Assembly (NCBI RefSeq): GCF_000376265.1
Contig: NZ_AQWU01000061.1
Span: 1 to 62,194 of the forward strand
Reading direction: 5' to 3'
Length of the DNA: 62,194 bases
DNA from: Thermus igniterrae ATCC 700962
GTDB lineage: Bacteria; Deinococcota; Deinococci; Deinococcales; Thermaceae
In this document: positions 4,540 to 54,825 of the stretch, piece after piece
Numbering within the stretch: the stretch's first letter is position 1
Layout: every line of letters begins with the position of its first letter
The notes under the pieces: model-generated
Told to the model about the DNA's origin: nothing
Databases searched by the model: none
The model's input: only the letters and a program-made list of their open reading frames with translations
Program-made: the position numbers and the translations under genes

Positions 4540-5685
4540 TTACCTCCGGCCGAAGCGGTTCACGGCAAAACCCAGCACCAGGAGGGCCACGGCCATGATC
4601 CCCACCCCCACCAGGCCCCAGAGGCTGGAGCGGACCACGGTGGCCCGGTAGTCCAGGCTCTCGGAAAGGCCATCGCCGCCCGAGAGGGAGAGGGTCACCA
4701 TGTAGTCCCCGGCCACCGCCTTGGGGGAGGGCTTGATGCGGGCGGTGATCTCCTGCTCCTGGCCCGGCTCCAGGGTGTCCAGCTTCTCGGGCTCAAACTT
4801 CACCTCCCAGCCCGAGGGCTCCATGGCGCTGAAGGAGAGGTTTTTGGCGGGGGCGCTCCCCTCGTTCTTGAGGGTGAGCTTCACCGGGTTTTCCCGCCCG
4901 GCCGTCACCTGGCCGGAGAGGCGGCCCTCCTTGGTGGTGAAGCGCACCTCCGGCCGGCCGGTGACCTCCAGGGTAAGGCCCAGCTCCGCCCGCGCCTCCC
5001 CGGCCACGGCCCTCAGGGTGAGGCCGTAGGTGTCGGCCTTGGTGTCCTTGGGCAGGGAGACCTCCACGTCCAGGTCCTTGCTCTCCCCGGCCTTGATGGG
5101 CAGGCTGGTCACCTGCTGGCTGGCGAAGGCCGGGGTGAAGGTGACCTGGAAGCCCTTGGGAGCCTCGTACTCCAGGGAGACCAGGAGGTCGCGGTCGGAC
5201 TCGTTGCGCAGGGTCACCCGGTAGCGGAAGGAGCTGGTTGGGGGACCCTTGAGGATGGGGAGCTCGGCCTCGAGGCTAAGCCGCTGGGGTAGCCCCTGGC
5301 CCACCACCAGCCCGATGGGCAGGCTGGCCGTCTGGCCCAGGCCCTCGGCCCGCACCAGGAAGCGGTAGGTGCCGGGCTTCACCTCCTTGGGGGGCTGGAG
5401 GCGGAGGGTGAGGGTGGCCTCGCCGTCCGGGGCCAGGTAGACCGCCCGCACCAGCCGCCCTCCTCCAATGAGGCTTGCCTGCCAGCCCTGGGGCGCCTCG
5501 GCCACGGCAAGGCGCACTACCCCCGGGGGCAGGCCGTGGTTCTTCAACGTCAGGGTGAGGCTGACGTTCTCCCCCGGCTGCACCCCCATCTCCGGGTAGG
5601 GGGTGCCCAGGGAGAGGCCGCGGAAACCCTGTGCCCAAGCCACGCTCAACGCCAGAAGGACCAGCGTCAGCAGGTTGCGTACCAT
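4540..5685 (-). CDS. Exported, membrane-anchored NEW3-domain protein
   Basis: 381 residues: a signal peptide ([19 protein letters not shown]), about three Ig-like beta domains, and a C-terminal transmembrane helix ([18 protein letters not shown]) ending in a basic FGRR tail. The recurring pattern of LTLKNx[10 protein letters not shown] and AGDY is typical of NPCBM-associated NEW3 domains, which occur on surface proteins and exporter-linked proteins. ATG 5685 is chosen because AGGAGG precedes it and the signal peptide starts there; a longer upstream reading has no ribosome site. It heads an operon with an ABC ATPase and permease and probably presents or guides a substrate outside the membrane. 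Confidence 0.83.
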
Positions 5686-5734
5686 ACTCAAGCCTCCTCT
5701 ACTAAGGCTAGGCAGAAAGGATGAGTCCAAAATG

Positions 5735-33572: not shown

Positions 33573-35288
33573 TCAGGGAAGGGCCTCAAGCCAAGACTGG
33601 AGCACCCCGAAGCCGTAGCGGAAGAAGTCCTCGGAGGCCAGGTCCACCCCGGCCTTGGCCAGGATTTCCTTGGGGCTTGCGCTCTCCCCGGCCTCGAGGA
33701 CCTCCAGGTACTTGGGCACGAAGGCCTGGCCCTCCTCCCGGTACCTGCCGTACAGGGCCAGGACCACCAGGTAGCCCAGGGCGTAGCTGTAGGTGTAGAA
33801 GCGGTAGTGGACGAAGTGGGGGATGCCGGCCCAGGCCGCCTGGTCCAGCTCCGTCCAGGCCACGGCCTCCCCGTAGAGCCGGGCCTGCTCCTCCTGCCAG
33901 ATTTGGTGGAAGGCCTCGGGGGAGAGGGCGGCCTCTTTGCGGGCCTCGAGGCTCCGCCTTTCAAAGAAGGTGTACATCACCTGGCGGAAGAGGGTGTTCA
34001 CCGCGTCCTCCACCCGCTCGGCCAGGAGGAGGGTCCGCTCCCCTTCGGGAAGGTTCTCCATGAGGAGGTCGTCCAGGAGGATTTCCGCAAAGACGCTGGC
34101 CGTCTCCGCCAGGGGGGTGGAGGCCCCAAAGTTGAGGAGGCGCTGCTTGCGGGCCAGGTAGAAGTGCACCCCGTGCCCCAGCTCGTGGGCCAGGGTGTGG
34201 GCGGCGTCCAGGTCGTCCGTGTGGTTGAGGAGCACGTAGGGGTGGGTGGAGGGAAGCCCCCCGGCGCAGAAGGCCCCGCCCCGCTTGCCAGGCCGGGGGT
34301 AGACGTCAATCCAGCGCCTTTCAAAGAACTCCCGGGCAATGGCCTCCACCCGGGGGGAGAAGCGGCGGAAGGCGGTAAGGACCAGCTCCTTGGCTTCGGC
34401 AAAGGGTATTTTGGGCTTCTCCGCCCTCAGGGGGGCCAGGAGGTCCTGGCTTGGGGTCTTCTCCAGGCCAAGCCGCTTGGCCTTCCAGCGGTAGTAGGCC
34501 TCCACCAGGCCGTAGTGTGCCTGGGTGGCCTCGAGGAGGGCCTCTATGTCCCGCACCGCCACCTCGTCCCGCAGGGCCACGGGCTCCAGAGGATGGCGGT
34601 AGCCCCTGAGGCGCAGGTCCTGCAGGTAGTCCAGGTAGACCGCGTTGAAGACGGCGCTCAGGGTGGGGGCCTCGGCCATGAGCTTGCTGTAAAGCTCCCG
34701 GTGGGCCTCCCGGCGCACCGCGGGGTCAGGGTCCCGCCGCAGGGCCCGCACCTCCATCTCCGTAAGCTCCTTGCCCCCCACCCGGAAGCGGAAGCGGCCG
34801 GTGTACTCGGTGTAGAACTGGCTCCAGGCGCTCCTTCCCACCAGGCCCTTGAGGTTGAGGAGCTCCTCCTCCCGTTCCGAAAGGGTGTAGGGGGCATAGG
34901 CCCTTTGCTGCAGGAGGAAGTGGCGCAGGTCGGCAAGCCCCGGGTGTTCCAGGAGCCTGCGGAAGGCCTCTTCGGCGAGCTTCTTGAGGGCCACCTCCAG
35001 GGGGACAAGCCGGTTCCTGAGCTCGGTGTAGCGGTTGCGCACCCGGTCCAGGAGGGCCTTGGCCACGGCGTCCTGGGTGCGGGTGGCGAAGTAGAGGCTG
35101 GCGTAGCTCAGGGGCTTGTGCCCCTTCTCCAGGGCCCGCTCGTAGTCCCGGAAGAGGGCCTCAGCCCTGTGGGGGTCCAGAAGGCCTTCCGGGGAAAGCC
35201 CCTCGGCCAGGGCCAGGGCTTCCTGGAGGTCTTCCTCAAGCCTCGGGTCCTCGGGGCCGGAGTACAGGTCAGAGAGGTCCCACTCCAT
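33573..35288 (-). CDS. pepF: Oligoendopeptidase F (M3B metallopeptidase)
   Basis: 571 residues. Cleaves short peptides in the cytoplasm. The zinc motif HELGH is in LAHELGHGVHF, and CAGGLPSTHPYVLLN and the late GIPHFVHYRFYTYSYALG are M3B signatures. The open frame continues far upstream on this strand, but ATG 35288 (MEWDLSDLY) is the real start: family members begin the same way, and TATAGT lies 7 nt upstream. Confidence 0.95.
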   Translation of the reverse strand: MEWDLSDLYSGPEDPRLEEDLQEALALAEGLSPEGLLDPHRAEALFRDYERALEKGHKPLSYASLYFATRTQDAVAKALLDRVRNRYTELRNRLVPLEVALKKLAEEAFRRLLEHPGLADLRHFLLQQRAYAPYTLSEREEELLNLKGLVGRSAWSQFYTEYTGRFRFRVGGKELTEMEVRALRRDPDPAVRREAHRELYSKLMAEAPTLSAVFNAVYLDYLQDLRLRGYRHPLEPVALRDEVAVRDIEALLEATQAHYGLVEAYYRWKAKRLGLEKTPSQDLLAPLRAEKPKIPFAEAKELVLTAFRRFSPRVEAIAREFFERRWIDVYPRPGKRGGAFCAGGLPSTHPYVLLNHTDDLDAAHTLAHELGHGVHFYLARKQRLLNFGASTPLAETASVFAEILLDDLLMENLPEGERTLLLAERVEDAVNTLFRQVMYTFFERRSLEARKEAALSPEAFHQIWQEEQARLYGEAVAWTELDQAAWAGIPHFVHYRFYTYSYALGYLVVLALYGRYREEGQAFVPKYLEVLEAGESASPKEILAKAGVDLASEDFFRYGFGVLQSWLEALP

Positions 35289-35295
35289 GGGGGCC

Positions 35296-35301
35296 ACTAT
35301 A
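35296..35301 (-). promoter_or_regulatory. pepF-truD -10 element (leaderless)
   Basis: Minus-strand TATAGT, 7 nt before the pepF ATG. Confidence 0.55.
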
Positions 35302-35366
35302 CCGCCACCCCGGTTAAGGGATGTGTAAGCCTTCCGGGCTAGGGTGGGAAGGGAAGGAGGTGAAAG

Positions 35367-35912
35367 ATGAAAAGGCAGTTTTGGCTTTTGGCCCTGATCC
35401 TTTCGGCCTGCAGCTTCCCCTTCAATTACTCCATCAACCTCCTCGACTACCTGGAAGTAGAGGGAACCTTCCAAGTGGGTGCTGGCGGCATAGACCCTAA
35501 TCCCAAGGACGTTGGACCCGTGCAAGTTTCCTGGAACCCAGACCCCCGGGTGAGCCTCTCTGGAGCTACCTTGGAGTTCCGGGTCTGCTTCACCTCCCAA
35601 ACTTCTGGGGCCGCTTTTAGCGGGACCTTGGCCTATACCGCCTACTTGGGGGCCCAAGGGGGAAGCGGTCTTTTTGTACCCGCCAACAAGGTGGCTGAGG
35701 GGACGCGGAATATCTCCGGTTTGGGTAGCGGTTCTGTGTGCGTGGAGGGCCAGGCCAACCTCACCCCGGCGCAGCTGCAGGCCATTCAGAGCGGTAACTT
35801 TTACGTGGGCGCCAGGATCTCTGGTACAGCCCAAAGCGCTCAGGAGGCCATCATCCGCTACCGGGGAGAGGTCTTCCGCCTCAATCTCTCTGGCAGCGTG
35901 CGGCCCTTCTAG
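35367..35912 (+). CDS. Lipoprotein of unknown function (paralogue of the 57.3-kb lipoprotein)
   Basis: 181 residues. A lipobox LSACSF puts the lipidated Cys near residue 15. The rest is beta-rich with two cysteines (FRVCF, SVCVEG) that could form a disulfide. The C-terminal half (KVAEGT, GQANLT, QSGNFYVGARISG) aligns with the lipoprotein gene at 57270-57797, so the genome carries at least two copies of this family. Strong AAGGAGG site before the ATG. Heads a three-gene unit of envelope proteins. No function can be assigned. Confidence 0.75.
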   Translation: MKRQFWLLALILSACSFPFNYSINLLDYLEVEGTFQVGAGGIDPNPKDVGPVQVSWNPDPRVSLSGATLEFRVCFTSQTSGAAFSGTLAYTAYLGAQGGSGLFVPANKVAEGTRNISGLGSGSVCVEGQANLTPAQLQAIQSGNFYVGARISGTAQSAQEAIIRYRGEVFRLNLSGSVRPF

Positions 35913-35921
35913 GGGTGAGGG

Positions 35922-37475
35922 ATGAGGAGGCGGTTGGTTGCCTTGGCCTTGGCCCTGGATCTGGCCTTGGCCCAGGAGCGCAAAGTGGACGCCCTCCACG
36001 GGTACGCCTTGGCTCTCCCCGAGGGGTACGCCGCCCGGGTGCTGGACTACGGCCTTCTGGTGGGGGACCTCGAGGCCTTCCTCCTGGTGCGGGGCCTGCC
36101 CCTGAAGCCTCCCCGGGAGGCGGTGGCCCCCTTCCTGGAGGAGGCCAGGTGGCTTGCCCCTGGCCAGGCCCGCCACCACTTCAAGGCCTTTCCCGGGGGG
36201 CTTCTCCTCCTGGGCCAGGGGCTTGGCTACCCCTGGCCTCTGGCGGGAAGCCTGACGGGGATCCCCCTTCCCGCCTACCAGGACCCCTTCCTCCTGGGCC
36301 TCCGCTACGAGGCCGCCCACCTGCTCCTGCCCGGTCCCAAAAGCCTGCTCTCCGTGAGCGCCTACCTCCCGGCCGATGCCCCGGCCCAGGCGCGCAAGGA
36401 GGCCCTGGCGGTCCTGCGCTCCCTGGAGTTCCTGCCCCCTGGGGCCCGGGTGCCCTACGGGGTGCAGGCGGTGCGGGACCCGGTTCTGGGGATGGAGGCC
36501 TTCTATGCCCCTGTGCCCCAGGGCTGGCGCTTCCAGGGCGCGCTGGTGCCGGCCTCGGCCCATCTGCGCCACCTGGCCTTCCTCCTCCAGGGAGAGGGGG
36601 TTTCCCTGCGCCGCGACCTCCTTTACACCCAGGCCCAGGGCCTCCAGGGTGCCTTTGGCGGAGGCGCCCAGACCAGCCTCCTCTGGAACGGCCAGGGTAG
36701 CCAGCTTCCGGGCTTCCTCTGCCCAGCCACGGCGAAGGAGGTGGGGGAGTTCCTGCTCAGCCTCTGGGGCCAGGAGACCGGGCGGGCCTGGCAGGTGGGG
36801 AGGGTGGGGCCGGCCAGGATCTTCCAAAGCCGGGTGGGCCGCCGCCTTCAGGAACTCCAGGAGGCCTATGAGGCCTCCATGGCCGCAGGCCTCCCCTTCA
36901 CCCCCCAGCGCCAAGGGGTACGGCTGGAGCTGGAGGCCACCTCGGGGGGGCTGGTGCGGAAGGCCTATGTGGCGGGCCATGTGGTCTTTTTCAACCAGCC
37001 GAGCACTTTTGCCTCCAGCGCCTACTGCTCCCTGGGCCTGGAGGTGGTGCTTGAGGAGGGGACCCGCGAGGCCCTGGCCAAGGCCCAGCCCCTCCTCTTC
37101 GGCTTCCGCGCTGGCCTTAGGGCCCATCCCCAGTGGGGGGCCCTCGAGGCCCAGCGGGGACAGCAGGCGGGCCGGACCACCACCGCGGTTTTGCTGGAAA
37201 AGCTTCGCCAGGACCAGGAGTTCAACACCTGGATGCGCCAAAGCTGGGCCAATCTCCTCTCCGACCAGACCTACGTGCGCGACCCCAGCACCGGGGAGAT
37301 CTTCCGCGCCTACAAGGCCTCCTTTGACACCGGCACCTTCTGGCGCGACCCCGTCTTTGGCGGAGTGGTGGGGGCAGTGGAGCGGGGCGGGCGGTTGGAG
37401 GAGGCCTTGCGCCAGGGGGGCTGGCGGCAGCTGGAGGAGTCCCTCTCCGGGCTTCCCGGAACCTGGCAGCGGTGA
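35922..37475 (+). CDS. Exported protein of unknown function, 517 residues
   Basis: A signal peptide (LVALALALDLALAQ) and then a long soluble region without transmembrane helices. A first part (about residues 25-165) contains GYALALPEGY and a lipid-binding-like LTGIPLPAYQDPF; the second part (about 170-420) is rich in large hydrophobics, and the C-terminal 90 residues are helical and charged (LLEKLRQDQEFNTWMRQSW). I do not recognise a family. It starts 9 nt after the lipoprotein gene and 3 nt before a membrane-protein gene, so the three are cotranscribed. Confidence 0.7.
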   Translation: MRRRLVALALALDLALAQERKVDALHGYALALPEGYAARVLDYGLLVGDLEAFLLVRGLPLKPPREAVAPFLEEARWLAPGQARHHFKAFPGGLLLLGQGLGYPWPLAGSLTGIPLPAYQDPFLLGLRYEAAHLLLPGPKSLLSVSAYLPADAPAQARKEALAVLRSLEFLPPGARVPYGVQAVRDPVLGMEAFYAPVPQGWRFQGALVPASAHLRHLAFLLQGEGVSLRRDLLYTQAQGLQGAFGGGAQTSLLWNGQGSQLPGFLCPATAKEVGEFLLSLWGQETGRAWQVGRVGPARIFQSRVGRRLQELQEAYEASMAAGLPFTPQRQGVRLELEATSGGLVRKAYVAGHVVFFNQPSTFASSAYCSLGLEVVLEEGTREALAKAQPLLFGFRAGLRAHPQWGALEAQRGQQAGRTTTAVLLEKLRQDQEFNTWMRQSWANLLSDQTYVRDPSTGEIFRAYKASFDTGTFWRDPVFGGVVGAVERGGRLEEALRQGGWRQLEESLSGLPGTWQR

Positions 37476-37478
37476 GCC

Positions 37479-38288
37479 ATGGAGGTCCTCAAGTACCAGC
37501 CCTGGCAGTGGCGGGCCGCCCTGGGCCGCCTCCTCCTGGGCGGCGGGGTCCTCCTCCTCACCCTTTGGGTGGCCTTCGGGATGGGTCCCATCCCTGGCCT
37601 CCTGCTCTTGTTCGGCGCGGCCTTCGGGGGGCTCTACCTCTGGCGCACGGGGGTAGAACCCCTCCGGCGCGCCGGACTGGAGGTGCTCCTGGAGCCCGAG
37701 GGGGTCCGGATAGGGGAGAGGTTCTACCCCCGTGGGGCCTTCCGCGGCGTGGAGGGCCCCCGGGGGCGCTGGGCGGCCTATCTCCTTTCCCATCCCGCTC
37801 AGCCGGGACTCCACCGCCAGGGCAATCCCTTGGCCCCAAGCCCCCTCTTTCACCTGGACTTTGGGGGGGAACGGGTGCCCCTCTGGCTGGACCTGCCCGG
37901 GTGGGACCGGATGCTCAGGCACCTGGGCCTGGACTGGACCGAGCATCCCGGGCTTTCCCGCTACCTGAGCCTGGTGGAGGGCATGGGCTGGCTCAACGGC
38001 CTCCTTTATCCACCGCAGGAGGCGGAGGAGGTCTGGCTGAGGGCCCGGAGGCGCTACCGGCGCCTCATGGGCCTCCTGTGGTTGGGCTTTGGGCTCATGG
38101 TCCTAGGGTTTATCGGGGAGATTGCCCAGGTCCACAGGGTGGTGGAATGGGTCATGGTGGGGTTCACCCTGGTGGGGTTTTTACTGGCCATTTATGCCAC
38201 GGGGGTCGTGCTTGGGGGCCGGAACGTGCAGGGGTGGGGGATGCGCTACAACCCCTTGCGGGCTTTGAGGGACGAGGAACTCGCCTAA
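37479..38288 (+). CDS. Membrane protein of unknown function with four predicted helices
   Basis: 269 residues. Two N-terminal helices (LLLGGGVLLLTLWVAFG, PGLLLLFGAAFGGLYLW), a central soluble domain of about 130 residues with a PH-like beta pattern (LEVLLEPEGVRIGERFYPRGAFRGV), and two C-terminal helices. The charged C-terminus (RALRDEELA) should be cytoplasmic. Third gene of the lipoprotein unit. I recognise no family; a sensor of envelope state is one possibility but not shown. Confidence 0.7.
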   Translation: MEVLKYQPWQWRAALGRLLLGGGVLLLTLWVAFGMGPIPGLLLLFGAAFGGLYLWRTGVEPLRRAGLEVLLEPEGVRIGERFYPRGAFRGVEGPRGRWAAYLLSHPAQPGLHRQGNPLAPSPLFHLDFGGERVPLWLDLPGWDRMLRHLGLDWTEHPGLSRYLSLVEGMGWLNGLLYPPQEAEEVWLRARRRYRRLMGLLWLGFGLMVLGFIGEIAQVHRVVEWVMVGFTLVGFLLAIYATGVVLGGRNVQGWGMRYNPLRALRDEELA

Positions 38289-45961: not shown

Positions 45962-46519
45962 GTGTACACGGGGGCGGTGCTGGCGGGGGGGTACTCCCGG
46001 CGGTTTGGCCAGGACAAGGCCCTCTTCCCCTACCGGGGCAAGCCCCTCCTGGCCTGGGTGCTGGAAAGCCTTTCCGGGGCCGAGGAGCGCTTCGTGGTGG
46101 CCAACCGCCCTTACGAGGGCTTCGGGGTTCCCGTCTACCCCGACCTCCTGCCCGGGGCCGACAGCCTCTCGGGTCTCCACTCTGCCCTGGTCCACGCCCG
46201 CTTCCCCTGGGTGGCGGTGGCGGCCACCGACCTCCCCTTCCTCACCCCGGCCTACTGGGCCTTCCTCCACGAAAAGGCCCTGGCCTCCCCCTACCCGGTG
46301 GTGGTGGTCCACAACCCGGAAGGCCACCTGGAGCCCCTCATGGCCTTTTACCACAAGGAATGCCTGCCCCAGGTGGAGCGGCAGATCCGGGAGGGGGATT
46401 TCCTCCTGCGCCGGGTGGTGGAGGTCCTGGGGGCCACCCACGTGCCGGCGGTGGAGGTGGTGGGGCGCTTTGGGGAGAAGGTTTTCCTGAACGCCAACCG
46501 CAAGGAAGAGCTTCCCTAG
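45962..46519 (+). CDS. mobA: Molybdenum cofactor guanylyltransferase-like protein (MobA family)
   Basis: 185 residues. Nucleotidyltransferase fold with LAGGYSRRFGQDKAL near residue 8-22, the GTP/pterin loop, and ATDLPFLTP with the metal-binding Asp. MobA attaches GMP to molybdopterin; a tungsten or molybdenum enzyme such as AOR is encoded 30 kb away. GTG start 3 nt after the preceding stop. The stop shares CTAG with the converging fibre-locus barrel gene. Confidence 0.85.
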   Translation: MYTGAVLAGGYSRRFGQDKALFPYRGKPLLAWVLESLSGAEERFVVANRPYEGFGVPVYPDLLPGADSLSGLHSALVHARFPWVAVAATDLPFLTPAYWAFLHEKALASPYPVVVVHNPEGHLEPLMAFYHKECLPQVERQIREGDFLLRRVVEVLGATHVPAVEVVGRFGEKVFLNANRKEELP

Positions 46520-49377
46520 TCCCGCACCCGGATGCGCAGGGTGTGGACCAGCTGGCCGTCCAGGTAGAGGCCCAGCTCGTAGGCCCCAGGGGTCCTGGGG
46601 GCCAGGAGGCGGCCTTGGAAGGTGAGGTCGTCCACCCGCTCCAGGGGGAGGATCAGGGGGCCCAGGCGCACCTCCACCCGGGTTGCCCGGCGGAGGAGGC
46701 GGGCTGTAAGGCGCACCTCCTCCCCGGGGTCCAGGAGGGCGGGGGAGGCCTGGAGGGTGGCCAGGGGTCCGGGGCGCACGGTCAGGAAGGCGGAGGTCTC
46801 CGCGCTTTCGGGACCCCGCTCGGCCCGCACCTTCAGCTCCTGGCTCCCCACGCCCTCCACGGGCAGGTAGGCCCCGTAAACCCCCTCCTCCAGGGGCTCC
46901 AGGGGGTAGGTGCGCCCGCCCAGTTGGGCAAAGACCCGCTCGGGGCTACCCTGGACCTGGACCCTGAGGGCTAGCTCGGCCCCGGGGGGGAGGCTTGGCG
47001 GGAGGGGGAGGAGGACTAGGCCCAGGCTCTCCTCGGTGAGGGTGCGCACCACTTCCCGCACCACCGGTCGGGCGGGGAGGAGGACCTGGGGCAGGGGGCC
47101 GGGCTGGAGTTCCAGGGCCAGGGGTTCCCCAGGTTCTTGGAGCTTATCCAGGCTTGATGGGTCCAGGCTCAGGACGTACCGCCCTGGCAGGAGGCCCCCG
47201 ATGACGAAGGCCCCCCGGCCGTCGGCTACTGTCGTGCGGGCCTCCTGCCCCTGGAGACGCACCCGGGCATAGGGCAGGGGGGGCTCTTCCGGGTCCCGGG
47301 TGCCGTTGCGGTTCTCGTCCAGGTAAACCTGGCCCAGAAGGCCCACCACGGTTTCCACGGGGAGGTCCAGGGGCAGGGTCTGGCCCCGCTCCACCCGCAC
47401 CTCCACCCGCCGCCGCAGGGCCAGGGTGGCCTCGAGGCCCCCCACCTCCAGGCGGTAGCTTCCCGGGTAGAGCTCCAGGCGGAAGCGTCCCTGGCCGTCC
47501 GCCACCGCTTCCAAGGCTCCCACGCGCACCCGGGCCCCTGGAAGGGGGGGTTCTTCCAGCCCCTTGAGGCCATCGCGGTTCCGGTCGTGGAAGACCACGC
47601 CCTCCAGAAAGCCCGTGGCCCGGCCCCCAAAGGCCTGGACCAGGGGCTCGGGGGTGTCAAACCCTCCCTTGAACTCCACCGCCCCCAGGGCCTGGACCCT
47701 CAGGGCTCCCTCCCGGTAGGTCCCCTCGAGGCCCAGGCCCAGGGCCCCTTCCTGGTACTTGAGGCCGAAGCGCGCCTCGGAGCTCCCGCGGTTCAGGTCG
47801 TAGCCCAGGAGGAGGCTGCCCTCAAAGGGGGGAAAGCTCCCCTGGCCCAGAAGCTGCGCCCGGTGCTCCCCGCCCACGGCGCTCAGGCCTACCTGGAGGC
47901 TCAGGGCGGACTCGCGGTAGGCGGCATAGAGGCCGTACCCCGGGCCTTGGGGGCTTTGCAGGAGGCTTCCGCCCACCTCGAGGCCTCCCTCGCGGTAGCG
48001 CCCCGCCAGGCCCAGGAGGATACCCCCCTGGTAGCCCAGGGTGGCGGTCAGGGAGAAGGGCTGGCCGGGCGGGCGGTGGGTGAGGGAGTAGAGCAGGCCG
48101 GGAGGGGTGCCCAGGCGGAGGGTGAGGCTTTGCCCCAGGCTTTCGTCCAGGCGCTGGGTGAGGGAGGCGCTCCCCTGGAGCCTACCTCCCTCGTAGGCCA
48201 CCTCCCCCCGCAGGCCCAGGGGGTCCTGGGAGCGGCTGGCCCCTCCCAGGCGTAGCCTCAGGCCCTCCACGTATGCCACCTGGGCCCCCAGGCTGAACTC
48301 CCGGGTCTCCCACCGGGCCTCGAGGCCCCCCCCCACCTGGACCGCCTCGGGGTGGGCGCGGCGGTAAACCGCCCCGTAGGGGAGGAGCAGGAGGCCCTCC
48401 GCCACCCTCAGGGCGTAGCCCACGCTGAAGCGCTGCCCCTGGGGGCTGAGGTGCAGGGCGGCCTGCCAGGGGTCGCCCTCGTACCCCAGCCCCAGGCTCA
48501 CCCCGCCCGTGGCCCAGGCGGCGTAGGCCCGCAAGGGGCCCAGCTCGCCGTCCAGGCGCCAGAGCCCCTCAAAGGCCCGGAAGCCCAGGGCAAACCCCTC
48601 CCCGAAAAACCCCACCTCTCCCCGGAGGCCCTGCCCGTCCAGGGCCAGGCTGGAGTCCAGGCGGACGTAGTCGGAAAGGGAGCCCGAAAGGGAAAGCCCC
48701 AAGGCCAGACCCAGGCCCTGGGGGCCGTACCGCCCGCTCAGGCCAAACCGGTAGAGGAGGGCCTGGCGCCCCAGGCGCTCCGCCCCGGCAAAGGGCTGGA
48801 CCACGGTTTCCAGCACGCCGTAGGCCCGCACCCTGGGGTCCAGCCCCGAGGAGGCCACCACCGTGGCCGTGTCCCGGTTCCGGCCCAGGAGGCGGATCTC
48901 CAGGACCACGGCCTCCGCCTCCCCTGGGCCCAGCTCCACCACCTCCTTGGAGAGGCGGAAGGGAAGGAGGCTTTTCACCTCCAGCCGGATGCGGTCTTGG
49001 GCGTTGCCCGTGTTGCGCACCAGGAGGGGGTAGGCCAGGGTCTCCCCCTCCACGCCTTCCCCCCCTGGAGGGGTTCGTAGCTCCACCCCGGCCCGGGGGG
49101 GGATGCGCAGGCGCACCACCCGCTCCTCCCGGGCGTCCCGCAGGCGCAAGGGGAGTTCCCCTGCCCTGGCCTCCGGCCCCACCAGGAGGTTGAGCACCCC
49201 CTCTCCCTCCACCCCCTCGCTGAGGAGGAGGAGGCCTGGGGGTACCTCCACCGCCACGATCCGGCCCTCCCCCCGCACGGGCACGCTCACGAAAGCTCCC
49301 GGTGGGGCCTCGAGGGCCTCGGGGGCCTCGAGGGCCAGCCCTAGGCCCACAAAGAGGAGGAGGGCCAGCGGGCGCAT
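46516..49377 (-). CDS. Usher-like outer-membrane barrel protein with B-type repeats
   Basis: 953 residues. Signal peptide (LALLLFVGLGLALEA); residues ~25-190 Ig/NEW3-like; ~190-590 a long series of alternating strands (LGLALGLSLSGSL, LSLGAQVAYVEGLRLRLGG, LLLGYDLNRGSSEARFGLKY) fitting a large beta-barrel; ~600-720 two SdrD/Cna B-type repeats, FHDRNRDG and YLDENRNG, with calcium-type loops; then Ig-like strands. It lies at the end of an operon of subunit-like and chaperone-like genes, at the place of a fimbrial usher. No classical FimD usher signature is seen, so 'usher-like' rests on context and architecture. Confidence 0.65.
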   Translation of the reverse strand: MRPLALLLFVGLGLALEAPEALEAPPGAFVSVPVRGEGRIVAVEVPPGLLLLSEGVEGEGVLNLLVGPEARAGELPLRLRDAREERVVRLRIPPRAGVELRTPPGGEGVEGETLAYPLLVRNTGNAQDRIRLEVKSLLPFRLSKEVVELGPGEAEAVVLEIRLLGRNRDTATVVASSGLDPRVRAYGVLETVVQPFAGAERLGRQALLYRFGLSGRYGPQGLGLALGLSLSGSLSDYVRLDSSLALDGQGLRGEVGFFGEGFALGFRAFEGLWRLDGELGPLRAYAAWATGGVSLGLGYEGDPWQAALHLSPQGQRFSVGYALRVAEGLLLLPYGAVYRRAHPEAVQVGGGLEARWETREFSLGAQVAYVEGLRLRLGGASRSQDPLGLRGEVAYEGGRLQGSASLTQRLDESLGQSLTLRLGTPPGLLYSLTHRPPGQPFSLTATLGYQGGILLGLAGRYREGGLEVGGSLLQSPQGPGYGLYAAYRESALSLQVGLSAVGGEHRAQLLGQGSFPPFEGSLLLGYDLNRGSSEARFGLKYQEGALGLGLEGTYREGALRVQALGAVEFKGGFDTPEPLVQAFGGRATGFLEGVVFHDRNRDGLKGLEEPPLPGARVRVGALEAVADGQGRFRLELYPGSYRLEVGGLEATLALRRRVEVRVERGQTLPLDLPVETVVGLLGQVYLDENRNGTRDPEEPPLPYARVRLQGQEARTTVADGRGAFVIGGLLPGRYVLSLDPSSLDKLQEPGEPLALELQPGPLPQVLLPARPVVREVVRTLTEESLGLVLLPLPPSLPPGAELALRVQVQGSPERVFAQLGGRTYPLEPLEEGVYGAYLPVEGVGSQELKVRAERGPESAETSAFLTVRPGPLATLQASPALLDPGEEVRLTARLLRRATRVEVRLGPLILPLERVDDLTFQGRLLAPRTPGAYELGLYLDGQLVHTLRIRVRD

Positions 49378-49380
49378 GGC

Positions 49381-49851
49381 CTAAAGGCGGCTCAGGGTGA
49401 AGACCAGGCTACCCCGGTACACCCCGGGCGCTTCCCTTCCCGTGAGGATCAGGCGGAACTCCAGGGTGTGGCTCCGGTACCCCCCGGTGGGCCCGGTGCC
49501 CGTGAGGAGCACCACCCTGGGCCCCAGGGGAATCCAGGGGCCGCCGTTCAGCCGGTACTCCACCTGTCCAGCAGGGATCTCTGCCCCGCTCGGGGAGAGG
49601 AGGGGGCTCGCCTCCACCTCCACGGCGAAGCCCCCTTCCAGGTTGGTGAAAAGCCTAAGGGTCAGGGGGCCGTTGGGGCGGGAGGGGCCGTAGGCAAAGG
49701 GGAAGCTGGGGGGTGGGAAGGGGGCTTGGCTCAGGTCAAAAAGCACCTCCTCGGCGCTCAGGGAGAGGCTGGTCCCCTCGGGCAGGTTCACCCCAATGGG
49801 CACCTGGGCCAGGGCCAGGCCTAGGGAGAGCCATAGGGCAAGAAACCGCAT
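49381..49851 (-). CDS. Exported fibre-subunit-like protein, small
   Basis: 156 residues with signal peptide (LALWLSLGLALAQ). Beta-rich. The C-terminal strand reads GVYRGSLVFTLSRL: Gly at -14, Tyr at -12 and hydrophobic residues at -4, -6, -8 and -10, as in chaperone-usher pilins. LRLFTNLEGGFAVEV and LEFRLILTGREAPG align with the 268-residue protein at the start of the operon. ATG overlaps the chaperone gene stop (TGATG). Its position between chaperone and usher suggests an adaptor, tip or terminator subunit. Confidence 0.65.
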   Translation of the reverse strand: MRFLALWLSLGLALAQVPIGVNLPEGTSLSLSAEEVLFDLSQAPFPPPSFPFAYGPSRPNGPLTLRLFTNLEGGFAVEVEASPLLSPSGAEIPAGQVEYRLNGGPWIPLGPRVVLLTGTGPTGGYRSHTLEFRLILTGREAPGVYRGSLVFTLSRL

Positions 49852-50633
49852 CAGCGCACCTCAATCCGTCCTTCCCCTGCGATGAGGCTTGGGCTTCCGT
49901 AGTCCAGGACCGCCAGGACCAGGTAGCGCCCGGGGGGCAGAACCCGGTCCAGGGGGGCGGGAAGCTCGTGGGTGGCCCCCGGGAGGCTGGCGGTCTCCGG
50001 CACCTGCCCCTGGGCCACGGGGCGGCCCTGGGCGTCCCGCACCTCCACCCTGCCCTTCAGGCGCAGGAGGCCAGTGCCCGTGTTCTGGAACACCAGGCGC
50101 ACCTGGGCGGGACCCTCCTGGCCCTGGGGCAGGTAGCGGAACCCCTGGATGCGCCCCGAGCGGGTCACCTGCCCCACCTCCACATAGACCACGTGCCCCA
50201 CCCGGGTCTTGATGCGGATGCCCAGGCCCTCTCCTCCCTGGCGGTTCCCCGCGGGGGCGGACTCAAAGAACACCACCCCCCAGTAGGTGCCGGGCTGGGC
50301 CTCCTTGGGCACCTGCACGGTGTAGCGCACCTCCTGGGTGGCCTGGGGCTGGAGGAGGAAGACCAGGGGGGTCACGCTGAGCCAGCGGGTGAGGGAGCGG
50401 GGGTGGCTGCCGGGGTCCAGGTAGAGGGGTCTGCCGTCGGCCTGGAGGAGGACGTCCTGCAGCACCACCTCCACCTGGAGGGTGCCGCTCCGCCCGGGGT
50501 GGTCCACCACCAGGCTTCCCGTCAGGCTTGCCCCCGGGGTTGCCGGGTAGAGGGCCCGGGGTGGGCTGACGCCCACTCCCGTCTGCGCCAGGGCCAGGCC
50601 GGCCAGGAGGGTAAGGGGAAGGAGTTTTCGCAT
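49851..50633 (-). CDS. Exported Ig-fold, PapD-like periplasmic chaperone
   Basis: 260 residues with signal peptide (LLPLTLLAGLALAQ). Two Ig-like domains: the first with SLVVDHPGRSGTLQVEV, RWLSVTPLVFLLQPQATQEV and VPKEAQPGTYWGVVFFE, in the pattern of pilus chaperones and DUF916-type proteins; the second with VRLVFQNTGTGLLRLKGRVEV. The highly conserved Arg-Lys anchor pair of PapD cannot be placed with certainty. TAAAAT lies 7 nt before the ATG, so the chaperone-usher part has its own promoter after a terminator-like hairpin. Confidence 0.7.
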   Translation of the reverse strand: MRKLLPLTLLAGLALAQTGVGVSPPRALYPATPGASLTGSLVVDHPGRSGTLQVEVVLQDVLLQADGRPLYLDPGSHPRSLTRWLSVTPLVFLLQPQATQEVRYTVQVPKEAQPGTYWGVVFFESAPAGNRQGGEGLGIRIKTRVGHVVYVEVGQVTRSGRIQGFRYLPQGQEGPAQVRLVFQNTGTGLLRLKGRVEVRDAQGRPVAQGQVPETASLPGATHELPAPLDRVLPPGRYLVLAVLDYGSPSLIAGEGRIEVR

Positions 50634-50640
50634 ACTTGGG

Positions 50641-50646
50641 ATTTTA
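50641..50646 (-). promoter_or_regulatory. -10 element of the chaperone-like gene (leaderless)
   Basis: Minus-strand TAAAAT, 7 nt before the ATG and 5 nt after the 16-bp hairpin. Confidence 0.55.
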
Positions 50647-50651
50647 GGGGA

Positions 50652-50687
50652 AAGGGGCTGCCCCCAGTCCTCTGGGGGCAGCCCCTT
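50652..50687 (-). terminator. Intra-operon hairpin between subunit and assembly genes
   Basis: A 16-bp perfect stem (50652-50667 with 50672-50687) with a 4-nt loop, starting 5 nt after the last subunit gene. On the minus strand TTT then CCCCTAAAAT follows, a weak T-run. It would be expected to terminate most transcripts or protect the subunit mRNA 3' end. Confidence 0.75.
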
Positions 50688-50692
50688 AAGGT

Positions 50693-51370
50693 CTAGAGGG
50701 CGGCCAGCTGGAAGAGGAAGTTGAACTGGTAGATGTCCGCCACCTCGGAGCCGTCAAACCAGAAGGCCTCGATGATGATGTCGTCCAGCCAGCCGGGGAG
50801 GCGGTTCCCCAGGACCTTGAGGAGTTCAAGGGGCTGGCCCTGGTCCTGCCCGTTGATCTGGACGAACTTGTAGTGGTTGATGTCGAGAGCCTTATCGATC
50901 ACCCCCGCCTGGCCGTACTTGGACCCGCCCTGGGTCCGGGTCACCTTGAGGTCCAGCTCGCAACCCTCTTTGTTGTTGCAGAACTTCTGGAGCACCTTCT
51001 GGTTGAGGCAGATGAGGGTGCCCTTTTCGCCAGGCTCTATCTTCCCGTTCCCGTCCAGGTCCTTGACGGCGGGGTAGACGTTGATGGGGGTGAGCTGCCC
51101 ACCAAGGGCGGCGTTGATGGCGTCCTGCAGGGTGCCCTGGAAGCCCTTGGGCACCAGGAAGCAACCCTCCCCGTTGCCACCCAGGGGCGGGTTGTTCAGG
51201 TCCAGGACCCACTCGTCCTCGGTCAGGTGCAGGGCCACCCGCTGGGGGATGGTGAGGTTGATCCGCTCGGTCACGGTGGCCTGCTCGTTCCCGGAATTCA
51301 CCACCTCCCCGGCCAGGACGAACCCTCCCAACAGGGCCAGGACCAGGACGGGGATGAGAGGCTTCCGCAC
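50693..51370 (-). CDS. Exported fibre-subunit-like protein with EF-hand loop (major subunit candidate 2)
   Basis: 225 residues with signal peptide (LIPVLVLALLGGFVLAG). Paralogue of the next upstream gene: both have ALHLTEDEW, LNNPP, GC-LVPK, INxYPAxKD, KVLQKF and GWLDDxIxExFWFDG. DLDGNGKIEPGE is a canonical EF-hand calcium loop. The last strand (DIYQFNFLFQLAAL) has Tyr at -12 and hydrophobics at -4 to -10, but Asp rather than Gly at -14. Three cysteines are shared with the paralogue (GCFLVPK region, LICLNQK, and one more), which could form disulfides. GTG start follows AAAGGAGG. Confidence 0.68.
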   Translation of the reverse strand: MRKPLIPVLVLALLGGFVLAGEVVNSGNEQATVTERINLTIPQRVALHLTEDEWVLDLNNPPLGGNGEGCFLVPKGFQGTLQDAINAALGGQLTPINVYPAVKDLDGNGKIEPGEKGTLICLNQKVLQKFCNNKEGCELDLKVTRTQGGSKYGQAGVIDKALDINHYKFVQINGQDQGQPLELLKVLGNRLPGWLDDIIIEAFWFDGSEVADIYQFNFLFQLAAL

Positions 51371-51382
51371 GGTTAGCCTCCT

Positions 51383-52120
51383 TTACAGACCCACCAGGGT
51401 GAAGGTCACGGTGAGGGTGTAGGTGCCGTCCAGCTCCGTGCCGTCAAACCAGAACCCTTCCACGATGAGGTCATCCAGCCAGCCGCCCGTGGTGCCACTG
51501 CTCTGAGCCAGGACCACGGGGCCGAAGGGGAGGGAGTTGGCGAAGTAGGGCTGCCCGATTTGGTTCCCCACCACATCCGTGATGGCGAAGTAGCCGAAGC
51601 CGCTGGTGGGCTGGCCGGTAACGCTCACGCTGAGCTTCCAGCCATCGGGGTCGTTGGAGAACTTCTGCAACACCTTGTGGTTGACGCAGAGGAGAGTGCC
51701 CTTCTCGTTGTCCTCCAGCTTGCCGTCCCCATCGTAGTCCTTGGCGGCCGGGTAGGTGTTTATGGGCCGGAGCACCCCGCCTCCTCCGATGTAGCTAACC
51801 AGATCGCCTGTCGTTTTCACCGCCTTGGGCACCAAGTAGCAGCCCTCAGCGGGGGGCTGGGGGTTTTGCGGGTTATAAACGTAGTCATTGGGGGCCGCCG
51901 GGGGGTTGTTGAGGTTCAGGTTCCACTCATCTTCCGTGAGGTGGAGGGCGTAGCGGGGCGGGATGATGACCTTCACCTTCTCCTTCACCGCCGCCTGGTC
52001 GTGGTTGTCATCGTAGAGCTCCTCCACCTGCCCGTCCAGGTCCCCCTCCGTGGGGAAGCCCACCTGGGCGTAGGCCGCCGCCAAGGCCAGGGCCATTAGC
52101 GCAATCCACCACTTCCGCAT
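51383..52120 (-). CDS. Exported fibre-subunit-like protein with EF-hand loop (major subunit candidate 1)
   Basis: 245 residues with signal peptide (IALMALALAAAYAQ). Shares its central block and C-terminus with the following gene. The calcium loop is DYDGDGKLEDNE. The C-terminal strand GTYTLTVTFTLVGL has Gly at -14, Tyr at -12 and alternating hydrophobics. A longer N-terminal segment (DNHDQAAVKEKVKVIIPP) precedes the subunit domain and could act as donor strand. ATG 52120 follows AGGAGG. Probably a structural subunit of a surface fibre. Confidence 0.68.
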   Translation of the reverse strand: MRKWWIALMALALAAAYAQVGFPTEGDLDGQVEELYDDNHDQAAVKEKVKVIIPPRYALHLTEDEWNLNLNNPPAAPNDYVYNPQNPQPPAEGCYLVPKAVKTTGDLVSYIGGGGVLRPINTYPAAKDYDGDGKLEDNEKGTLLCVNHKVLQKFSNDPDGWKLSVSVTGQPTSGFGYFAITDVVGNQIGQPYFANSLPFGPVVLAQSSGTTGGWLDDLIVEGFWFDGTELDGTYTLTVTFTLVGL

Positions 52121-52186
52121 GACTACCTCCTTGCTACCGAATACCCATCCTGAATCCGTGCAAAGGGCCTCGAGCCGATGAGCCGC

Positions 52187-52993
52187 CTAGAGGAGCACGA
52201 GGGTGTACACCAACCAGCCCTCGTACTCGCCTGGAACCTCGGAACCGTCCAGCCGGAGCTTGATGCCCAGGGTGACCGACTGCCAGCCGCCCGGGTGGTC
52301 CAGCACCTCCTCCAGGAGCACCCCGCCCGTGGGGCCCGGGGGGGCCGGGCAGATGTGGGAGGGGGGCCGGTCCCAGTCGGGGTGGTAGCCCAGGCACTTC
52401 CAGTGGGGGGTGGGGGGCACCCCGCCCCGACCGGTGAGGATGGAGTGCATGGCGAAGTGGTTGGCCTCCAGCACGTCGCCCGTGGGGCTCCTGGGCTCCA
52501 CCTCAAAGGCCACGGAGAGGGCCCACCGCCTGGCCTGGGTGAAGACGTGGAGGCGCATGGAGGGGTGGGTGAAGAACTGAGGGAAGGCCTTGGAACCGGG
52601 GATTACCCGTCCTTGCCCGTCCAGGCGCACGGGAGGGTAGGGGCGCCCCTCCTCGTCCAGGAGGCGGCCGTCCCCCCCGTAGAGGGCCACGCAATGGGGG
52701 GGTACGGGGCCTAGGGTGGCGCAACGCAGGTCAAAGACCACCTCGGGGTCCCGCAGGCAGAGGGTGGGGTCTGCCGGGTTTCTCGGACAGTAGGGGGGTT
52801 GGGGTGGGTTCGGGGGACGGTTCCCCCGCTGGGCCAAAAGCGGCACCGCCTTCACCCCTCCCACGGCTGGGGGTTCCAGCACCAGGACCGTGCGTTCGGG
52901 AATCGCGACCTCTATCCGCAAGGAGGCTTGGGGGCCTGCCGCCGCCAGGAGGAGGGGCAGGAGCGCATACCAGGCCAGGTGCCCAAGCCTCAT
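52187..52993 (-). CDS. Exported fibre-subunit-like protein, first gene of the operon (tip candidate)
   Basis: 268 residues with signal peptide (LAWYALLPLLLAAAGPQ). An insertion of about 130 residues with several cysteines (PPYCPRNPADPTLCL, LRCATL, HCVALYGG) sits between the N-terminal strand and the C-terminal subunit fold, so it is larger than its relatives, like a tip adhesin. The final strand GEYEGWLVYTLVLL has Gly at -14 and Tyr at -12. ATG 52993 is preferred over GTG 53002 because GGGAGG lies 8 nt before it. Confidence 0.65.
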   Translation of the reverse strand: MRLGHLAWYALLPLLLAAAGPQASLRIEVAIPERTVLVLEPPAVGGVKAVPLLAQRGNRPPNPPQPPYCPRNPADPTLCLRDPEVVFDLRCATLGPVPPHCVALYGGDGRLLDEEGRPYPPVRLDGQGRVIPGSKAFPQFFTHPSMRLHVFTQARRWALSVAFEVEPRSPTGDVLEANHFAMHSILTGRGGVPPTPHWKCLGYHPDWDRPPSHICPAPPGPTGGVLLEEVLDHPGGWQSVTLGIKLRLDGSEVPGEYEGWLVYTLVLL

Positions 52994-53016
52994 CCTTCTC
53001 ACCTCCCTTGCCGGCC

Positions 53017-53160: not shown

Positions 53161-54821
53161 GTGAAGGTGCGGCTTCCCCTGTACGGTCCTGCCCGAGCCG
53201 AGGGGCCCCTTGGTCCCCTGTCCTTGCGGCGCAAGGCCCTGGGCATCCTCTACTACCTGGCCCTCGAGGGCCCCACCCGCAGGGAGAGGCTAGCCGACCT
53301 CCTCTGGGGGCATGGGGCTGCTTTGCAGAACCTCCGGGTGGAGCTCACCTATCTGCGGGGGTTCCTGGGTAAGGAGGCCCTCCGGGGGCAGGTGCTGGAG
53401 CTGCCCCCCGGGGTGGTGCTGGACCGGAACCCGAAGATAGGGGAGGCCCTGGAGGGCCTGGAGGAAGTGTCCCCCGCCTTTGCCGACTGGGTGCGCTCTT
53501 GGCGGGAGCGTTCCGCCTCGCCCCTCGAGGCCCTCCCCCTGACCGAGAGGCTCCAGGCCGTCCAGCCCCCGGCCTTGGTGATTCTCATCGGTCCGCCGGG
53601 ATCGGGGCGGGAGGCCTTGGCCTAGGCCCTAGCGAAGCGGCTTGGCCTCCCTTTCCGGCGGGGGCTGGGGCAGGGCCCAGGGGTGTTCTACTTCGGCGAC
53701 CCCCTGCCTCCCCGGGAGGCGGCCTACGGCCTCCGGCCCACCCCGGGGCAGGTGCTGGTGGTGGCCCGGAGCGCCTTTGGCGAGGACCCCGCCTTCCTCC
53801 TGGTCCTGCGGGGTTCTTTTCCCGCCGAGATCACCGTGGCCGAGCCCGTCCCCCGCCTTACCTGGCCGGAGGCCTGGAGAGGGCCCTTGCGCGGCTACTC
53901 CTTCCCCGAGGCGGCGCGCTTTTACCTGGAAAGCGGGGGGCGGGCGGAACTCCTGAAGGAGATGGTGGCCATGGGGAGCCCCGAGGCCATACCCCAGCGC
54001 ATCCGGGCCCAGGTTCTCCTCGAGGCCCGCTACCTCTCTCTGGAGGCCCGCAAGGCCCTGGAGGTCCTTTCCCTCCACCCCAGCCCCTTCCCGGAGGAGC
54101 TGGCCGAGGCTTTGGGCGTGGCCCAGTACCTGGACGAGCTGGAGCGCCGGGGGTGGCTTGTGCTGGGGGAGCGGGGTTACCGGTTTGCCGAGCCCCAGTT
54201 CTGCCGCTTCCTGATCGCGGAACTGGCCCAGGGAGAGCGGCTTCGCCTCCACCGGCTCATGGCCGAGGGGTTTCGCAAGGTGGGGGATCCGGTAGCCGAG
54301 GCCTACCACCGCTACTGGGCCGGGGAGGACGTGTGCCCTCCCACCGGCCTCAGGCCGTGGCAGGAGCCCCAGTCCCCGGCCTCCGAGGCGGGGGTGCCGT
54401 GGATGCAGGTGGGACTCGGGCCGGTGCGGGCCCTCGAGGCGCCCCAGGAGGCGGTTTTAGTCTCCTGGGGGGGCGAGGAGGAGGGGCTTTGCCTGGAGCT
54501 GGAGGAACCGGCGGTGCTGCACATTTCGGGCAACCTTTACCAGGAGCTTCCCTTTGGCCTGGGTTTGGTCCAGGACAACTTCCCCTTGCGGCTAAGGGGG
54601 GGAGGGTACGCTATATACTTCCTTCCCCGGGCGGCTCCGGCGGTTTTCCCAGGGGGAACGGTCCTTCCCCAGGAACCCCTGGACTACCGCCTCTTCCTTC
54701 CCCCCGGGCCTTACCGCTTGGAGCTTGGGGTAAAGGGCGTGGCCCACCTGCACCTCCGGGTTCACGCGGTCAAAAAGGGCCAGGAACAGGTCCTGGCCCT
54801 CCTGGGGCAACCGGTGAAGGT

Positions 54822-54825
<4 letters not shown>
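53161..54825 (+). pseudogene. SARP/AfsR-like transcriptional regulator interrupted by an in-frame TAG
   Basis: 555 codons in one frame, with TAG at codon 155 (53623-53625). Residues 1-~95 form a winged-helix DNA-binding domain like SARP/BTAD regulators (LRRKALGILYYLALEGPTRR, LADLLWG, LRVELTYLRGFLG). Walker A GPPGSGREAL begins near residue 141, and the TAG falls in the helix just after it. The frame then stays open for 400 codons with regulator-like helical sequence (LHRLMAEGFRKVG, AEAYHRYWAGED) and a beta-rich C-terminus. GTG start follows GGAGG. Fragments: 53161-53625 and 53626-54825. It could be a sequencing error, a recent mutation, or read through at low level. It shares CTAG with lon. 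Confidence 0.75.

Follow-up and report, generated by a model that had tools for sequence, protein, structure and literature searches.

Six collinear genes for exported proteins in Thermus igniterrae

We analysed a 62,194-nucleotide stretch of DNA (the window) from T. igniterrae ATCC 700962, which forms contig C61 of a 2.23-Mb genome. The window is ordinary Thermus-type chromosome, with genes for arginyl-tRNA synthetase, uvrC and ribonucleotide reductase nearby. Six collinear genes that form an operon (46516-53002, minus strand) are read leftward in the order S1 (52187-53002; 271 amino acids from a GTG start), S2 (51383-52120; 245 amino acids), S3 (50693-51370; 225 amino acids), CH (49851-50633; 260 amino acids), S4 (49381-49851; 156 amino acids) and BA (46516-49377; 953 amino acids). 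S1, S2 and S3 are subunit-like exported proteins, CH is an exported chaperone-like protein with two Ig domains, S4 is a conserved small subunit, and BA is a predicted outer-membrane barrel protein that we regard as an usher analogue. Going from S1 to BA, the genes are separated by 66, 12 and 59 bases, a 1-base overlap (CH/S4) and 3 bases. A scan of the operon for promoters and terminators was uninformative in this GC-rich DNA.

The N-termini of all six proteins resemble signal peptides, as judged by eye. A preliminary description of this DNA had proposed six exported proteins encoded leftward; all six minus-strand frames were recovered and orthologues in other genomes confirm the genes, which rules out chance open frames in GC-rich DNA. 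The upstream end given there for S1, position 52993, corresponds to an in-frame ATG that is backed by several orthologues; the frame itself extends to the GTG at 53002. No chaperone, usher or subunit model of Pfam or NCBIfam was matched by any of the six proteins, and no fimbrial model fits them, in line with the earlier statement that the operon matches no named fimbrial family. S1-S4 had no match of any kind in these collections, CH had sub-threshold Ig-type matches only, and BA matched CarboxypepD_reg (4.7e-13) and SdrD_B (3.8e-10).

Divergent from the operon lies a regulator gene (53161-54825, plus strand), weakly assigned to the BTAD/SARP kind. It is interrupted by an in-frame TAG at 53623-53625; other Thermus genomes have intact orthologues, and the interrupted gene may be a pseudogene or reflect an assembly error. 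At 34 of 44 loci, the neighbouring gene encodes a regulator of about 560 residues and is transcribed divergently; some loci appear twice in this count, via two collections.

Conservation and distribution of the gene set

The full six-gene order, including S1, is present in nine Thermus genomes, counting that of T. igniterrae; in the eight others, BA is 64-74% identical. S1 is confined to this operon type. The T. igniterrae genome carries a second, four-gene paralogous copy on contig C58, and BA relatives are present in 36 of 61 related genomes. In each of 20 loci picked through the barrel gene, CH, a small S4-type subunit and one or more other subunits adjoin the barrel, always in the order subunit-CH-S4-BA. 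When all GTDB species were searched with the CH alignment, 20 additional places emerged, and 19 of these have a barrel gene; in the remaining one, the contig stops about 540 bases past CH. Some of these places repeat barrel-picked loci (T. caliditerrae, T. altitudinis, T. tenuipuniceus, T. arciformis and T. composti), and the others come from metagenome-assembled genomes (MAGs) of Thermaceae, Deinococcales and Trueperaceae, from one MAG labelled only bacterium and from two MAGs labelled Bacillota. The co-occurrence of the protein families, a point on which the preliminary description had made its reading depend, hence holds from whichever side the loci are picked. Subunits and barrel also lie alongside more divergent CH proteins in about 14 of 18 loci, and the subunit-CH-S4-BA quartet is carried by four Deinococcus plasmids, where its products are annotated as hypothetical proteins, except for one carboxypeptidase-like regulatory domain protein. 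A tblastn search of plasmids with a Bacillota subunit gave no match. The two Bacillota-labelled MAGs (L067, L068) hold a variant set, with the barrel gene convergent to CH and several subunit genes. A third type of Thermus locus (L126-L130, L142) contains CH, subunits and, at most of the loci, a barrel of 805-819 residues.

CH-type proteins were found in 57 of 111 Deinococcota species genomes (20 of 31 genera). In the same sample, the Usher model (PF00577) matched no genome, and PapD_N and SCPU matched one genome each, the same one. Yet about half of the sample carries the gene set, with no Pfam usher match and a single PapD_N match. The exceptional genome holds the sole recognisable archaic chaperone-usher operon of the sample (L149; contig G045:C134, 2-4191), encoding an SCPU-like subunit, a PapD-type chaperone (PapD_N), an usher-like protein of 735 residues that the Pfam Usher model misses, and an SCPU subunit. 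We found no paper describing the T. igniterrae operon among open-access journal papers.

Profile similarity of CH to pilus chaperones and WxL-interacting proteins

E. coli builds hair-like surface fibres with a chaperone-usher machine. We compared the CH alignment by hhalign with eleven E. coli K-12 chaperones. A first CH alignment reached 78% with the classical K-12 set and 86% with EcpB/EcpE; after broadening, the values, which span both Ig domains, rose to 88% for the eleven chaperones and to 94% for EcpB/EcpE, compared with 5% for K-12 subunits, although single hhalign values call for caution because an off-target control, CH against S4 with the signal peptide included, reached 67%. With the archaic chaperone of L149, CH aligned at 95% (K-12 chaperones against the same protein, 79%), and a search with just the CH profile hits it at E 4.6e-4. 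PapD_N has no match in CH; profile-profile comparison with known chaperones gives 88-95% over one or both domains, and the alignment over both Ig domains supports the chaperone-like reading of the preliminary description. Among the solved structures closest to the CH profile are EfmWxLIP1 (E 0.03) and EcpB (E 0.42); a single-sequence search against solved structures gave no match. Judged from these profiles, CH is distantly related to the chaperones of pilus systems, and its kinship extends to the WxL-interacting protein (WxLIP) of Gram-positive bacteria.

Residues 139-153 of CH (50175-50219, minus strand) form a stretch in which hydrophobic and polar positions alternate, as seen in the column hydropathy of 47 relatives, and they sit where the donor strand G1 of chaperones lies. 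Arg26 of CH (PPRALYPA) aligns with the Arg of the FimC motif ATRVIYPA, a likeness to the classical (Fim, Pap) systems, but only 24 of the 47 CH sequences have it, and the paralogous loci do not conserve it. The carboxylate anchor of archaic and alternative chaperones consists of a conserved Arg plus Tyr/Arg (PMC4654587); at the position of the archaic signature Arg, 39 of the 47 CH sequences carry Trp. Neither the classical anchor residues (Arg8/Lys112) nor the archaic/alternative ones are conserved as such among the 47 relatives, and the conserved residues Arg144 and Tyr150 of CH could act as a substitute anchor.

The kinship with WxLIP raises the question whether the operon encodes a WxL/WxLIP-like surface complex carried into diderm bacteria, in which CH would cap Ig-like subunits on the envelope, BA would be a large anchor or pore, and the subunits would form no fibre. 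WxLIP (DUF916-DUF3324) is likewise a two-Ig partner protein, and AlphaFold predicts that one of its strands completes the incomplete beta-sandwich of WxL (PMC10599100), the same principle as donor-strand complementation. Besides the EfmWxLIP1 hit, CH relatives show weak matches to WxLIP_PGBD (E 0.0017 and 0.014), CH aligns with WxLIP at 69% over 230 columns in profile-profile comparison, and in a Bacillota genome (L091, 763-2289) a membrane-anchored CH homologue, recognised at 99.5% by profile, stands behind a subunit-like gene, a possible WxL/WxLIP link. However, WxLIP is membrane-anchored, binds peptidoglycan and works without an outer-membrane barrel, whereas CH of the operon has no membrane anchor and ends after its second Ig domain, and no WxL model of Pfam or NCBIfam was matched when we tested for a WxL/WxLIP cluster. 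A large barrel with usher-like layout is moreover encoded in nearly every well-covered locus, and the N-terminal extensions of S2 and S3 (see below) are not needed for capping of the WxL type. We consider this explanation unlikely.

BA is a predicted large barrel with an usher-like domain layout

Ushers are 24-stranded outer-membrane barrels, and we follow the definition of their layout in PMC8410936. An AlphaFold2 model computed from 30 BA sequences (mean pLDDT 85, pTM 0.43) predicts for BA the series Ig-Ig, meander barrel, two transthyretin/B-type domains and Ig-Ig. The two N-terminal Ig-like domains, presumably periplasmic, comprise residues 21-194 (48796-49317, minus strand, as for all BA features) and show a weak FixG_C match in Pfam. 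Residues 206-574 (47656-48762) are predicted to form an up-and-down meander of amphipathic strands, with pLDDT mostly near 90 and turns of 2-7 residues; the strand count of about 28, which is predicted and approximate, compares with 24 in ushers. No plug insertion is seen in this barrel, the largest gap between successive predicted strands being 7 residues. A conserved TPE...FGGR motif (residues 575-586; 47620-47655) directly follows the last barrel strand. Then come the two transthyretin/B-type domains (residues 589-771; 47065-47613), to which the CarboxypepD_reg and SdrD_B matches belong, and two C-terminal Ig-like domains (residues 786-951; 46525-47022). The strand alternation of BA scores 2.97, compared with 1.51 ± 0.20 for shuffled sequences, and none of 2000 shuffles scored as high. 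The preliminary description of BA as a 953-residue barrel with B-type repeats thus agrees with the model in both respects.

In its predicted layout, a periplasmic N-terminal part and two C-terminal beta-domains around a barrel, BA resembles the ushers. In a fold search, FimD and PapC were the best outer-membrane-barrel matches, followed by LptD, with TM-scores of only 0.2-0.3 for the ushers, and generic multi-Ig proteins score as well. The B-type domain of BA matches that of the SdrD/MSCRAMM B-repeat proteins (10ps, E 7.8e-19), but these are cell-wall-anchored staphylococcal adhesins that have only this small domain in common with BA. We rejected the idea that BA is a mere SdrD-like adhesin: the B-type domains account for 183 of its 953 residues, and its gene nearly always travels with CH.

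Profile-profile comparison of BA with K-12 ushers was negative for the barrel part and gave 40% between the C-terminal domains of BA and those of FimD. The negative outcome says little, because classical ushers also fail against the genuine archaic usher of L149 (6.8%); the lack of a PF00577 match in BA has low power, since the model misses the L149 usher too. A single-sequence search with BA against solved structures gave no match. The transthyretin-type domain of barrels from the third type of Thermus locus weakly matches CooC_C, below threshold (E 0.002 and 0.054). CooC_C is the C-terminal model of alternative-pathway ushers, and the earlier remark that B repeats are not usual in ushers has become doubtful, given the sub-threshold match at E 0.002.

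These traces bear on the possibility that the system is an extremely diverged true member of the archaic/alternative group, with BA a homologous usher that has lost its plug and gained strands. This reading concerns ancestry and is compatible with the explanation we prefer. The CooC_C matches, the 40% alignment with FimD and the presence of a recognisable archaic operon in the same phylum argue for it; the lack of a barrel match and of a plug, the number of predicted strands and the Trp at the archaic signature position argue against it. We regard such a descent as possible, though doubtful.

A MAG labelled Bacillota (L140, 1992-5276) encodes a barrel relative that ends in LysM domains and adjoins CH and two subunit-like genes; the next gene there reads like a secretin with LysM domains, which points to a diderm host. 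From the LysM ending of this relative we infer that the C-terminal side of BA is probably periplasmic as well, as an usher model requires.

The subunit-like proteins

S1, the S2/S3 pair and S4 are mutually homologous at 95.5-98% in profile-profile comparison, so that the relatedness of the subunit-like proteins noted earlier was confirmed. Their C-termini carry a GxYxxxxxFTL-like strand that aligns with the C-terminus of FimA at 72%. From the likely cleavage site to the proline of the first strand there are about 35 residues in S2, 21 in S3, 12 in S1 and 8 in S4. Hence, only S2 and S3 possess long N-terminal extensions that could act as donor strands, while S4 lacks one. The N-terminal segments alternate as donor strands would be expected to. 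Searching solved structures with the subunit profiles returned nothing meaningful, and their comparison with the SCPU-type subunits of L149 reached 55% at best, over 36 columns.

The model of S4 (pLDDT 89; three plasmid rows were left out of the input) is a beta-sandwich that ends in the GxYxxxxxFTL strand and leaves residues 17-26 unpaired. No fold match of this model was better than E 0.005. Nine of the top 50 were fimbrial subunits, among them PapG, FimG, PsaA and CsuA/B, and carbohydrate-binding domains rank above these. Among targets of the same size, the best TM-score (0.53) belongs to the PapG pilin domain bound to PapD.

S2 contains an EF-hand/dockerin-like loop (DYDGDGKLEDNE; 51704-51739, minus strand) that is kept in its orthologues, and a corresponding loop is present in S3 (DLDGNGKIEPGE; 51026-51061, minus strand). 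To judge from their sequence, these loops suggest calcium binding in the six-gene operon type; the paralogous loci have a degenerate version of the loop. We view S2 as a candidate major subunit, S4 as a candidate tip subunit and S1 as a candidate accessory subunit or adhesin.

Polymerisation of S1-S4 is an inference, and the operon might instead serve the dedicated secretion of non-polymeric beta-sandwich proteins that CH keeps export-competent and BA releases to the medium or the S-layer. Up to four different subunits per locus, and calcium-type loops in S2 and S3 as they occur in secreted surface proteins, are in keeping with this idea. PapD-related chaperones, however, serve to hold incomplete subunits for polymerisation, and the donor-strand-like alternation in the N-terminal segments also speaks against it; of the explanations considered here we find this one the least credible.

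A probable chaperone-usher-like route for fibre assembly

We favour the explanation that the operon encodes a chaperone-usher-like system for surface fibres, with BA as a non-canonical usher analogue, and assign it a probability of about 0.62. S1-S4 would cross the inner membrane by Sec, as their signal peptides suggest. CH would then hold each subunit in the periplasm, its alternating strand standing in for the final strand that the subunit fold lacks, and the complexes would bind to BA at its N- and C-terminal Ig/transthyretin domains. There, the N-terminal strand of the next subunit would take the place of CH, and the growing chain would leave through the larger, plug-less barrel of the usher analogue. 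S2 and S3, with their long extensions, would make up the shaft, the universal S4 without extension would form the tip, and S1 would be an accessory subunit of the six-gene operon type.

That the operon works like a chaperone-usher pathway is moderately supported, while its membership in a named family is not supported. The diverged chaperone-usher system of the preliminary description stands only in part: the predicted barrel, the co-occurrence of the genes and the alignment of CH speak for it, and the missing plug and about 28 instead of 24 strands speak against family membership. With the archaic and alternative systems (Csu, Ecp), the operon shares subunits, an exported two-Ig chaperone with profile similarity to theirs, and a barrel flanked by periplasmic beta-domains; it differs from them in the lack of PapD_N, SCPU and Usher matches, in the Trp of CH, in a plug-less barrel followed by transthyretin/B-type domains, and in its gene order subunit-chaperone-small subunit-barrel. 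From the classical systems it differs further in that barrel, plug and subunit families are unrecognisable by sequence. Because plug, strand number and chaperone anchor residues all deviate, the operon is not classifiable as classical, alternative or archaic.

More tentatively, the operon could represent a separate class of donor-strand fibre assembly, in which Deinococcota combine a PapD/WxLIP-type chaperone with a barrel of about 28 strands that has no plug and evolved independently. If so, the WxL system and the proteobacterial chaperone-usher pathway would share an older principle, a chaperone plus an incomplete subunit. In any case, the unannotated gene set of Thermus and related bacteria resembles a remote chaperone-usher machine with a different, larger and plug-less pore, so that this way of building fibres may be older and more varied than assumed. 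If it builds fibres, it would be an unrecognised class of surface appendage in Thermus and Deinococcus, besides type IV pili, and neither the usher barrel nor its plug would be obligatory for donor-strand fibre assembly. The membrane-anchored Gram-positive relatives of CH would then make the origin of the chaperone-usher pathway testable.

Two other minus-strand frames of the window deserve mention. The product of one (4540-5730) is exported and has three Ig domains of the NEW3 type (NPCBM_assoc, 1.9e-37) as well as a membrane helix at its C-terminus; its weak match to the CH profile (3e-6) probably reflects shared Ig character only. The other (33573-37946) is a frame of 1457 residues, whose long N-terminal part matches no Pfam model at E 1e-5 and whose C-terminal third carries an oligopeptidase F/M3 domain.
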